This document shows, one piece after another, positions 2,518 through 43,626 of a stretch of DNA of 64,000 bases. Below the pieces are notes generated by a model. That model did not search any database and was not told the DNA's origin. It was given only the letters and a program-made list of their open reading frames with translations. The stretch's first letter is position 1; every line of letters begins with the position of its first letter. Source of the stretch: Opitutales bacterium (lineage in GTDB: Bacteria; Verrucomicrobiota; Verrucomicrobiia; Opitutales; Coraliomargaritaceae); assembly GCA_030729385.1 (NCBI GenBank), contig JANQXM010000042.1:33254-97253 (forward strand), in the 5' to 3' direction. Position numbers and translations under genes: made by a program.

Positions 2518-3954
2518 TTAAGACGATATAGCGGCTTCACTTTCAACGCCTTCGAGCACGAGCTCTCCAAAGAGCGTGCTGGCAGTGACTCGGTTGAATC
2601 GGACGGGCACGAGTTGACCGACTAGTCGTGGGCTCGCTTTGACGATCACAACGCGATTACCACGTGTGCGGCCGATGAACATGTCTTCGCCTTTCTTGGC
2701 TGGACCTTCAAAGAGCACTTCCTCGACTTTACCGACTAGCGCTTCGTTACGCTCCAGCGAGCGACGGCTCAAAATTTCAAGTAACACTTGGTTACGCTCT
2801 TCTTTCGTCTCTTTACTTATAGGGTCACCGAGTGGTTCGGCGGTGGTATCGGGGCGCACACTGTATTTGTAGAGATAGGCCATATCAAAACCGATTTCTT
2901 CAAAGTGTCTACGGGTCAGTTCAAAATCTTCTTCAGTCTCGCCTGGAAAGCCGACGATTACATCGGTGGAGATATACATATCCGGTCGAACGGCGCGGAT
3001 TTTTTCAATGATGCTGCGGAACTTTTCGATGGTGTAAGGACGACGCATCGCTTTGAGAATCGTATTGCTTCCACTCTGCATCGGGAAGTGTAGGTATTCG
3101 CAGAGCTTTGGTAGTCGAGCGTAGCATTCAATCAGGTCGTCCTTAAAGCCGACCGGATGGGGGCTGGTGAAGCGTATGCGCTCGATTCCCTCGATAGTGT
3201 GCACCTTTTCGATCAATTGCACAAAAGGACTCTTTTGATCGACGAAAGGAAACTCACGTATGCCGTATTGATTTACTATTTGTCCCAACAAGGTGACTTC
3301 TCGCGTGCCTTTTGCCACTAGCTCTTCGATTTCTTCGATAATGGCCTCCATGGGGCGGGCGCGTTCGGTCCCACGTGTCTTGGGCACGATGCAGTAAGAA
3401 CACTTCATATTACAGCCCTGCATGATGCTGACAAAGGCGGTGGCTTGCGGCTTATCGTCGACGTGCGACTTAATCGTATTTTGAGAATCGAGTTCTTCGG
3501 CTAGATCGACGATGGATTCCGGACGTGGGCCTTGGCCCTGCATCGTAGCGATAATATTGCTCAGATGGTCGGGTACGCGGTGAAATTTCTGTGTGCCGAT
3601 GATCAGGTCGAGGTCTGGCAAACTATCGAGCAGAGCCTCACCGCGGTTTTGAGCCATGCACCCCATGATGCCTATGATGAAGTTGGGGTTTTTGCGCTTT
3701 CTTTTACCGAGGTGGCCCGCTTTACCGATGGCTTTTTGCTCGGCCTGGTCACGCACGCTGCAGGTGTTCAGTAGGACGACATCGGCCTCTTTCTCGTTAT
3801 CGACCAGCGCATAGCCTTTCCCCCGAAGCATCGCGGCGACCGCTTCGGAGTCTCGTTCGTTCATTTGGCACCCGTAGGTTTTGATATGCACCCGGTTCAT
3901 GAGGAAGTCGGAGAATGTTGAGCCCAAAGGCTTTGTAAACTCAGAACTGGACAA
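2518..3954 (-). CDS. miaB: tRNA-2-methylthio-N6-dimethylallyladenosine synthase MiaB
   Basis: VHIKTYGCQMNERDSE, radical SAM CNMKCSYCIVPKTRG, TRAM-like C-terminus. Confidence 0.95.
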   Translation of the reverse strand: MSSSEFTKPLGSTFSDFLMNRVHIKTYGCQMNERDSEAVAAMLRGKGYALVDNEKEADVVLLNTCSVRDQAEQKAIGKAGHLGKRKRKNPNFIIGIMGCMAQNRGEALLDSLPDLDLIIGTQKFHRVPDHLSNIIATMQGQGPRPESIVDLAEELDSQNTIKSHVDDKPQATAFVSIMQGCNMKCSYCIVPKTRGTERARPMEAIIEEIEELVAKGTREVTLLGQIVNQYGIREFPFVDQKSPFVQLIEKVHTIEGIERIRFTSPHPVGFKDDLIECYARLPKLCEYLHFPMQSGSNTILKAMRRPYTIEKFRSIIEKIRAVRPDMYISTDVIVGFPGETEEDFELTRRHFEEIGFDMAYLYKYSVRPDTTAEPLGDPISKETKEERNQVLLEILSRRSLERNEALVGKVEEVLFEGPAKKGEDMFIGRTRGNRVVIVKASPRLVGQLVPVRFNRVTASTLFGELVLEGVESEAAISS

Positions 3955-5698: not shown

Positions 5699-7237
5699 CT
5701 ACTCTTTGGGCTTCGCGACTTTCTTGGCGGGTTTCTTTTTTACCGTCTTTTTGGTCGTGGCTTTTGGGGGCACAGTTTTCTTTGCGGCGGCTTTCTTAGT
5801 CGCAGTCTTTTTCACCGTGGCTTTCTTTGTGGCGACCTTTTTGACCGCTTTTTTCGTCGCCTTCTTCTTAGCCGGTTTGTCTGCGGGAGCTGGTTTAGCT
5901 GGCTCCTTTGATTTCACTTCGGACTTCGTTTTAGTTTTAGGCTTTTTGACCGGTTCGGTTTTGGCTTCTGCAGGAGCCTTCGATTTGGGTGCTTTAGCTT
6001 TTGGCTTGGAGCTGGTTTCTTTGCCCTCCTGAGAAGGTTTAGATTCAGCGCTTGGGGGCGTTGAATTTGTTTCGCCTACTGGATGCTGTTTTTTGCCACC
6101 GCGTCGTCGGCGATTCCGAGCTGCCTTGTTTGATGTATCAGTGTTTTCTGCGCGTGGTTGTGAATCATCAGCCTGCGCGGATTGTTTGGCTTCAGTTTTC
6201 CCTGCTTCTTGCGAGTGCTCTTTATTGTCGTTTTCGCGATTACGATTACGACCTCCACGGCGTCGACCACGTCTGCGCTTAGAGCCAGCCTCTCCCTGTG
6301 TTTGATTATCAGGCGATCTTTGTTCGCGTTGAGGTGCTGGTTTTTTCGCTTCGTAACGCTCAGGGTGCGTTTCAAAATCTTCGATCGCAGCTGCGATCTT
6401 TTCTTCCATCTCTTCGTCGGTGTATGGAATAGTGCGTTCGACTCTTTCTGGTGATTTGGTCGGAATCTTAGGCTGTTCCGGTGGGCAGTATTCTGCGGGC
6501 GGCAGCACGATTGCGTTGTAAGGATCGATGGGAAGCGGATCTTCTGGTAGTGCAGATTTCGCTTTGGCGCTGAGACGCGGGTAAAGGGTGATTTCGTTGG
6601 GCACGTTGGGCTCATTCTCATTGAGTAGTTGCTCAATGGTGCGTGCGACGTGTTCGGGATCGATGCGTGTTTGCATCAGCTGCTCGTCGCTCACATCTGC
6701 CGCGGGTAGTTCTGGGTTTTGGCGAAGGATGAGGTTGGTCACTCGGAGACCGGCATCACGGGCTTGATCGAAGAGCGCGTTATTCATCTCGCGGAGGCCA
6801 CCTTCGATGAGTGCATTGATCGCACTCGCGGGGTGCCCACTCTTGTTGGCGGGGATGATGTTAATGAGCTGACCACGAAAGCGCAGTAAGTTGGGTAGTG
6901 CGAGGCGGGTCAGCATGATCGGACCGAGGAGTCCGATTTTGAGAATGGCTTCGAGATTACCGACAGGTAGTTTTTCGAAAGCGCCGCCAGGCGTTACATC
7001 GATCGCATGGATTAGGATGTGTAAGGCACCTTCCTTTTCCAGAATTTCATTGGTCGCGCGAGTGACGGCTTCGAGATCGCTGACATCAATCGGATATGCG
7101 AAGAAGTTTTGATCTGCGAAAGTGACTTTCGAGAAATTATTACCGATGCCGTGCACGCGGCAACCTTGCCGAATGAGACCCTTGATGATCCGGAGACCGA
7201 GAGGTGTCTCGGCGCCGGTGACAATAGCAATGTCCAT
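5699..7237 (-). CDS. SDR-fold protein with Arg-rich linker and Lys/Ala-rich histone-H1-like C-terminal tail
   Basis: N-terminal DIAIVTGAETPLGLRI Rossmann motif; middle KRRRGRRRGGRNRNR; C-terminal repeats KKATKKAVKKVATKKATVKKTATKKAAAKK. Confidence 0.8.
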   Translation of the reverse strand: MDIAIVTGAETPLGLRIIKGLIRQGCRVHGIGNNFSKVTFADQNFFAYPIDVSDLEAVTRATNEILEKEGALHILIHAIDVTPGGAFEKLPVGNLEAILKIGLLGPIMLTRLALPNLLRFRGQLINIIPANKSGHPASAINALIEGGLREMNNALFDQARDAGLRVTNLILRQNPELPAADVSDEQLMQTRIDPEHVARTIEQLLNENEPNVPNEITLYPRLSAKAKSALPEDPLPIDPYNAIVLPPAEYCPPEQPKIPTKSPERVERTIPYTDEEMEEKIAAAIEDFETHPERYEAKKPAPQREQRSPDNQTQGEAGSKRRRGRRRGGRNRNRENDNKEHSQEAGKTEAKQSAQADDSQPRAENTDTSNKAARNRRRRGGKKQHPVGETNSTPPSAESKPSQEGKETSSKPKAKAPKSKAPAEAKTEPVKKPKTKTKSEVKSKEPAKPAPADKPAKKKATKKAVKKVATKKATVKKTATKKAAAKKTVPPKATTKKTVKKKPAKKVAKPKE

Positions 7238-42219: not shown

Positions 42220-43479
42220 CTAGCTAGAGAAATAGGCGAACTTGCGCAGCGCTTCTGCGTGCTCACTGGCGTCTTCGAATCCGCATTTCAGTAAAATAAT
42301 CGGATGTTCGATATTTTCGATTTCGGAGGACTTTTCACAGATGGTATATTTTAGAGGCGTTTCACGGCAGCCGAAAAAGCTACTGATATTACTTATCGAA
42401 TGGCTCTGACATTTTTCGATCAGGCTTTCTGGGTCAGGGTCCAAAATGAGAATTTGAGCCCCATCGATGTAAGAAAGCCATCCGCTTAAACGATTAGTAA
42501 CGCCTAAATCCATGAAGCCATAGCCACTACAAATAATGCGTCGCGTTTGTAGTAGCTGATTTTGAAATTTCGCCCAAATCCACGGGTAATTTGCATAATT
42601 GTAGGCTTCCATCTTTCCAAGTATACCAGCTAGGAAATCTGGCGTGCCGTAATAACCCAAGTTGTGATTGCCTTCTGAGTAATCGGAATCTGGGTTGTCC
42701 AAGCGGTGGTATTCTTCTCCGTTCCAACACCAATCAATCGATCCGTGTAGCTTTAATAGGATATTCTGATCGTTATCGTTAAGCTTAGATGGATGAAATC
42801 GGCTAGTTTGAATTGATTCATCAAAATAAAAGCCATCTTCATAGTGTATTCCTAAAGTTTTAAGGGCGGACTCGCTCTTGATATCATGGTTCAAGGTGGA
42901 AAGTGAAAATAATCTCTTATCGCAATTGAGTGTTCTGAGAAAATTGATTTGTCCATTAACTATATCTTCACCGTTTCGCTCTAAAAGAACCTTATTTGTG
43001 TGTTCTTTATTTCTGTCGATGAGTGACTCATAGACATTCCAGCGTATCCAATCATTGGTTGCATTTAAAATGTCCCAACGCGACACAGAGCGATCTCGGA
43101 TAGGTCCTATATATTTCTTTAATGAATCCGAGGCGTTAAGTTTTTTAAGCAAGTCTTCGAATACTAAATTTCTAAAAGGTATTAATGTAGGGGTTCGATG
43201 GGTTCCCTCATTTTTACAAAGATCGTCAACGATTTGTGCGAGTTCTTCATAATTTGGGGGTGTCTTGGTATTCTTGCTAGGTTGCTCTGATAATACAGAC
43301 GTTATGGCATTCAAAGTAGCTTTAGTGAGTTCCGCGCTGTGAGGATCCATCACTCCTTCAAATCCTAAGTTAGTCTGTAATCTGTGGTTAGAGCCAAATT
43401 CCAATTCTCCGGATAGAATTTGCTTGGTAATATCCTTAACCTTTGGCATCGGACTCGTGTATGAGCCGAAGAGAAACAT
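42220..43479 (-). CDS. SIR2-like domain protein
   Basis: FSLSTLNHDIKSESALKTLGIHYEDGF, ILLKLHGSIDWCW, RIICSGYGFMDLGVTNRLSGWL; N-terminal MFLFGSYTSPMPKVKDITKQIL aligned by eye with SIR2 GAGxS region. Confidence 0.6.
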   Translation of the reverse strand: MFLFGSYTSPMPKVKDITKQILSGELEFGSNHRLQTNLGFEGVMDPHSAELTKATLNAITSVLSEQPSKNTKTPPNYEELAQIVDDLCKNEGTHRTPTLIPFRNLVFEDLLKKLNASDSLKKYIGPIRDRSVSRWDILNATNDWIRWNVYESLIDRNKEHTNKVLLERNGEDIVNGQINFLRTLNCDKRLFSLSTLNHDIKSESALKTLGIHYEDGFYFDESIQTSRFHPSKLNDNDQNILLKLHGSIDWCWNGEEYHRLDNPDSDYSEGNHNLGYYGTPDFLAGILGKMEAYNYANYPWIWAKFQNQLLQTRRIICSGYGFMDLGVTNRLSGWLSYIDGAQILILDPDPESLIEKCQSHSISNISSFFGCRETPLKYTICEKSSEIENIEHPIILLKCGFEDASEHAEALRKFAYFSS

Positions 43480-43626
43480 GGGGCGATATTCGTGAGTATT
43501 CGTGTTCATTGGCGGTCAAACCTGTGTTGGCTTTCCAATAGACTGAAATCCTATGCTTCAGTGCGCAAGGACAAGCTGGTCTCTTGGGCGGACTGTCGGT
43601 CTTCGCGAGCAAAGCCCCTAATAAGC

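Follow-up and report, generated by a model that had tools for sequence, protein, structure and literature searches.

Here, we report a gene whose product joins a short-chain dehydrogenase/reductase (SDR) fold, with its active site lost as judged by alignment, to a long disordered tail that ends like histone H1, and which is retained across an order of bacteria that are mostly marine. In the window (the whole stretch of 64,000 nucleotides that was analysed) this gene lies at 5699..7237 on the minus strand, starts with ATG and encodes 512 amino acids; orthologues are present in 74 of the 273 sampled genomes of the order. Our preferred reading, to which we assign a probability of about one half, is that the protein is a pseudoenzyme scaffold tethered to nucleic acid that was originally the partner of a radical-SAM enzyme resembling spore photoproduct lyase (an SPL-like enzyme). 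We regard the operon link to the SPL-like gene as the most telling lead. Pseudoenzymes and histone-like tails are each known in bacteria. Nevertheless, literature searches on SDRs with a histone-like tail, on SPL with SDR and on a Coraliomargarita histone returned nothing on the tailed family, and we found no published account of an SDR without an active site that carries an H1-like tail and is kept across an order. If the tail binds DNA, this would be a nucleoid protein of unrecorded architecture in abundant marine bacteria. The automatic label 'SDR family oxidoreductase' would mislead for the tailed genes.

The SDR fold

The SDR (Rossmann) domain comprises residues 1-222 (6572..7237; this and all other parts of the protein are encoded on the minus strand). 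Residues 3-128 match adh_short (PF00106) with an E-value of 2.6e-14, and SDR models are the only Pfam matches of the protein; in particular, there is no match to an HU domain up to E 0.1. Many NCBIfam SDR models also match, all far under their cut-offs (the best with 49 bits against 271), and the sequences of active SDRs in the PDB can be aligned to residues 3 to about 220. An AlphaFold model of the domain, built with 32 family sequences, shows a confident SDR fold (pLDDT 89, pTM 0.87), the closest PDB fold being that of 5vt6, an NADP-bound acetoacetyl-CoA reductase (TM 0.80). The protein therefore has the Rossmann fold of classical SDR enzymes, as the sequence-only reading had proposed for its N-terminus. 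It shares with classical SDRs (PF00106; e.g. PDB 5vt6 and 3emk) the fold, the length, the order of secondary structures and the start of the glycine-rich turn, but it lacks the Asn-Ser-Tyr-Lys tetrad and the NNAG and PG motifs and adds a basic tail of 290 residues.

Loss of the active site

To compare the tetrad, 71 tailed proteins were aligned with 15 ordinary SDRs. None of the tailed proteins has Tyr and Lys together, whereas all 15 ordinary active SDRs have both; one residue of this pair is left in two cases, Lys alone in one tailed protein and Tyr alone in one. In the window protein the tetrad Asn is replaced by Gly102, and the Ser position falls on Pro or a gap near residues 128-129, where the translation reads IIPANKSG (residues 127-134). 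The YxxxK position is occupied by NALIEGG (residues 141-147; 6797..6817), in which Tyr has become Asn141 and Lys has become Glu145. The segment ILIHAID (residues 74-80; 6998..7018) places His77-Ala-Ile-Asp80 at the NNAG position in the alignment with active SDRs. A remnant of TGxxxGxG is found in VTGAETPLG (residues 6-14; 7196..7222, from alignment and translation), in which the TGAETPLG stretch carries Pro in place of the middle Gly.

These losses extend across the tailed proteins. The NNAG motif, the PG motif and the Ser position are gone, the last mostly as an alignment gap, and the middle Gly of TGxxxGxG remains in only 14/71 tailed proteins (lost in 57/71) against 15/15 active SDRs. As judged from the alignment, the whole active site has thus been lost in the family. 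The loss of the tetrad may have been stepwise, since Asn at position 111 (classical numbering) is retained in 22/71 tailed proteins whereas the Tyr and Lys pair is gone in all. A shifted but intact YxxxK, which the sequence-only reading had named as evidence against its claim, can be rejected, as none was found at residues 120-166 of any of 65 homologues. That reading had described the tetrad loss for the window protein; it holds family-wide, and the motifs quoted there (VTGAETPLG, ILIHAID, IIPANKSG, NALIEGG, KRRRGRRRGGRNRNR and ARNRRRRGGKK) were all found in the translation.

Selection on the SDR domain

For the SDR part, comparison of 12 related pairs gave dN/dS values of 0.03-0.10 (rough, several pairs being near saturation), which indicates that a non-catalytic function is maintained and leads us to reject a recent pseudogene. 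For the tail, dN/dS is 0.09-0.37, taken only from pairs with unsaturated synonymous sites. The pattern of conservation differs from that of active SDRs. It is lower at the NNAG position (0.86 to 0.48), in the Ser loop (0.49 to 0.37), in helix F (0.61 to 0.52) and also in beta5, and higher in beta2 (0.52 to 0.79), beta3 (0.40 to 0.56) and beta7 (0.57 to 0.68). From these falls and rises we infer that the nicotinamide and catalytic side was released, whereas the adenosine side, or an interface located there, appears to be still needed.

Two alternatives bear on this domain. The first is that it is still an enzyme, with different chemistry performed by other residues as in some divergent SDR relatives. 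The domain is under strong selection, and the residues found most often in place of Tyr and Lys are those of the window protein, Asn141 (31/71) and Glu145 (36/71); however, no substitute is conserved there family-wide, other members carrying Gly, Ala, Ser or Phe, and conservation of the catalytic side is lowered overall, so that we regard this as very unlikely. The second is a ligand or redox sensor, in which the SDR domain would bind NAD(P)(H) or another adenosine compound and alter the hold of the tail on nucleic acid. NAD-binding regulators of the SDR type (NmrA) exist, and part of the pocket persists: the TG of the glycine-rich turn is present in 69-71 of 71 tailed proteins, its last Gly in 62/71 (the other 9 have Ala) and the Asp of the beta3 loop in 54/71. 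The increased conservation of beta2 over active SDRs points the same way, although it could also be structural or belong to an interface. The two features that the sequence-only reading had attributed to the protein, binding of NAD(P) and redox sensing, are unsupported: the second Gly is lost in most members, the NNAG and PG motifs are gone, and neither the AlphaFold model nor the alignment gives a sign of a bound dinucleotide. We consider such a sensor unlikely.

The tail

About 290 residues follow the SDR fold of the window protein and end in disordered Arg-rich and Lys/Ala-rich segments. They begin with a Pro-rich linker (residues 223-301; 6335..6571), in which Pro and a 'P..I.T' motif are partly conserved. 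Inside the linker lies an acidic helix, TDEEMEEKIAAAIEDFETHPERY (residues 273-295; 6353..6421); in the full-length AlphaFold model, residues 274-290 form one helix within the linker, with a pLDDT of about 84-92, and disorder is predicted from residue 302 to 512, with a pLDDT below 50 in the C-terminal tail. An Arg/Gly/Asn-rich segment, KRRRGRRRGGRNRNR (residues 320-334; 6236..6280), and a second Arg-rich segment, ARNRRRRGGKK (residues 373-383; 6089..6121), are read from the translation. The C-terminus is a Lys/Ala/Pro/Thr-rich, histone-H1-like tail (residues 411-512; 5702..6007), whose 102 residues include 40 Lys, 20 Ala, 13 Pro, 12 Thr and no Arg. The sequence-only reading had been right about a Lys-rich end, although its estimate of about 80 residues of Lys, Ala and Thr was slightly too short.

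The same build recurs among the homologues. Each of the 65 homologues in the main set that do not run off the end of a contig has a tail in frame; tail lengths are 107-532 residues, with a median of 283. The acidic stretch is found in 61/65, an Arg-rich stretch (at least 6 Arg in 12 residues) in 54/65, with RRRGRRRGGRNRNR-type segments in most members, and a Lys-rich stretch (at least 9 Lys in 30 residues) in 58/65. The usual order is the Pro-rich linker, the acidic stretch or helix, the Arg-rich stretch and the Lys-rich end. The net charge of the tail is positive in nearly all homologues, and a few members (such as L046, L058, L064 and L072) have weak or nearly neutral tails. Both parts of the protein are thus conserved, and in-frame tails of the same build in 65/65 complete homologues lead us to reject a frameshift or assembly product, a concern raised by the sequence-only reading. 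Tails of this kind are not common in the genome: RRGRRRG occurs in frame in the tailed gene only, according to a DNA pattern search and a tail search that was limited by low-complexity handling. A recent DNA tandem repeat as the source of the tail was also rejected, as there is a single 30-bp, two-copy repeat.

From its composition and predicted disorder, the tail is a plausible binder of nucleic acid. Basic tails attach to polyanions of any kind, including polyphosphate, RNA and acidic lipids.

Comparison with known systems

Three known systems resemble the window protein in part. The first is AlgP/PhaF of Pseudomonas, which shares with it a folded N-terminal part followed by a long disordered Lys/Ala/Pro-rich C-terminus (PMC9239181). 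The N-terminal part of AlgP/PhaF is helical or a phasin, whereas that of the window protein is an SDR; moreover, AlgP/PhaF has KPAA repeats and lacks the Arg/Gly/Asn-rich segment, whereas the window protein has KKATKK-like sequence and no KPAA in its translation. The second is MDP1/HupB of mycobacteria, whose disordered Lys/Ala-rich C-terminus is likewise shared and compacts DNA in MDP1 (PMC5974015); it differs in its N-terminal HU DNA-binding domain, for which no counterpart was detected by Pfam. The third is SDR5C1/HSD17B10 of human mitochondrial RNase P, an SDR fold with a structural role within a nucleic-acid machine; neither its catalytic site nor its NAD site is needed for tRNA processing (PMC3526285), but it is still an active dehydrogenase and carries no basic tail.

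The first comparison suggests another client for the tail. It might bind polyphosphate or storage granules, or tether granules to the nucleoid, while the SDR domain recognizes the granule or a client enzyme. AlgP localizes to polyphosphate granules; its H1-like KPAA tail binds DNA and positions these granules, the tail being needed for their spacing, and PhaF combines the same kind of tail with a PHA-binding domain (PMC9239181). The closest fold, 5vt6, belongs to acetoacetyl-CoA reductase, a kind of enzyme that takes part in PHA synthesis, although the SDR fold is generic. However, no granule gene was seen among the conserved neighbours and the KPAA repeat is absent, and we regard a granule function as rather unlikely.

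Distribution and phylogeny

A sequence search found strong relatives of the SDR domain in 30/44 genomes of the family and 70/273 genomes of the order, and a profile search returned the same 70 order genomes at 160 bits or above (at least 160 bits). Divergent tailed versions were recognized in four genomes of a further family, f22, by reading all four sequences; three of them lie directly before miaB. The tailed orthologues thereby reach their total of 74 genomes in 9 families, and a one-off gene can be rejected. Relatives with names come from Puniceicoccaceae/Opitutia metagenome genomes and Coraliomargarita sp. In the phylogeny, the tailed proteins of all 9 families form one clade, with f22 inside (support 100/99).

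A class-wide profile search of 384 genomes gave nothing above 111 bits outside the order. The 14 matches examined, from outside the order and from two of its members, are all ordinary SDRs that retain YxxxK. Beyond the order, searches across the class and the phylum retrieved ordinary active SDRs only, none of them next to SPL. At L032/L149 (genome G037) the orthologue is interrupted around codon 54, either by an in-frame TGA or by a change of frame, which could reflect a broken gene or an assembly error.

Link to an SPL-like gene

The neighbour that distinguishes several loci is an SPL-like radical-SAM gene (Pfam SPL, 3.5e-17; NCBIfam photo_TT_lyase, 1.1e-20, well below the cut-off of that model). 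It occurs in 62/273 order genomes, together with the tailed gene in 16 and without it in 46 of the sampled genomes. Where both are present, the tailed gene is the next gene after SPL on the same strand in 14/16 genomes; in 13 its ATG lies before the end of the SPL gene, and 11 of these overlaps measure exactly 10 nt, an arrangement that suggests translational coupling. In several families the order is a PNP_UDP_1-type nucleosidase, the SPL-like gene and the tailed gene. The nucleosidase is directly 5' of SPL in nearly all loci from L088 to L127, with or without a tailed gene. A scan for promoters and terminators gave results at chance level.

All 44 SPL-like proteins (L038 4527-5577 and 43 of the order) contain CxxxCxYC. 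At the position that a PDB alignment assigns to the hydrogen-donor Cys of the B. subtilis-type SPL, these 44 proteins have Tyr (39), His or Gln. The substrate of the SPL-like enzyme may therefore not be spore photoproduct, and its reaction may differ.

Two SDRs illuminate the origin of the tailed family. They are encoded at L088 (genome G063) and L089 (G123) and occupy the same operon position after the SPL-like gene as the tailed proteins, the L088 start overlapping the SPL stop by 4 nt; in contrast to the tailed proteins, they have no tail and retain an intact YxxxK (YAATK/YAGAK) and NAAG. They are the best-scoring non-tailed matches of the family profile (140 bits), and G063 carries both kinds, an intact tail-less SDR and a tailed protein. 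One split (support 98/83) groups these two SDRs with the tailed clade and apart from the remaining SDRs; with a root among ordinary SDRs, they would be the sister group of the tailed clade. Intact SPL-linked SDRs are rare, and a phylum-wide search found no further one. Intact tail-less SPL-linked SDRs, decayed tailed ones in the same gene order and tailed survivors of SPL loss form an unusually clear before-and-after series, through which the path from a metabolic enzyme to a scaffold can be put to the test.

The SPL partnership cannot be the sole role of the tailed protein, as SPL is missing from 58/74 genomes that encode it, and no SPL match was found in the genome of the window. This genome and its nearest relatives share the arrangement mnmG-mnmE-recA-(MGMT)-DUF-HAD-tailed gene-GGCT-miaB-ispH. 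The separate gene miaB (2518..3954 in the window, minus strand) is the most widely shared downstream neighbour, adjacent or close to the tailed gene in several families, including f22, which has no SPL. This proximity suggests an RNA-associated factor, the Arg/Gly/Asn-rich segment binding RNA in tRNA or ribosome biology, an idea that we find doubtful. The RRRGRRRGGRNRNR-type segment of most members fits it, as does SDR5C1, an SDR subunit of a tRNA-processing complex (PMC3526285). However, in genomes without the tailed gene the nucleosidase-SPL pair is often followed directly by miaB-X-gmk, so that proximity to miaB may be mere inherited gene order, and the Lys/Ala tail resembles DNA-binding H1-type tails.

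Proposed mechanism

In the scaffold reading, the SDR active site would have decayed in the ancestor of a family that spans the order (Opitutales in the broad sense), the fold being kept by selection while a long disordered basic tail became joined to it. SDRs usually form dimers or tetramers. The folded domain would pair in a putative oligomer and offer a platform on which other proteins bind, and the still-conserved half of its pocket might hold a ligand that contains adenosine. Several tails per complex would then hold the scaffold on nucleic acid by charge, DNA being more likely than RNA. In lineages that keep SPL, synthesis of the tailed protein would be coupled to that of the SPL-like enzyme, and for this reason the protein probably began as a tether or adaptor of this nucleic-acid enzyme. 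In the lineage of the window, from which the SPL-like gene is gone, it would be a free-standing scaffold associated with the nucleoid or with RNA. A bolder version, which we offer tentatively as one possibility, is that an SDR that once served the SPL-like enzyme became an H1-tailed pseudoenzyme adaptor, presenting damaged or modified nucleic acid or recruiting the enzyme, and in some lineages outlived its partner as a new type of nucleoid-associated protein.

Other genes in the window

Two further open reading frames were noticed in the window. At 416-2098, an IspH-like ORF of 560 amino acids has a long N-terminal extension that is Nudix-like by eye, and at 42220-43509 an ORF that is SIR2-like by eye is flanked by unrelated genes.
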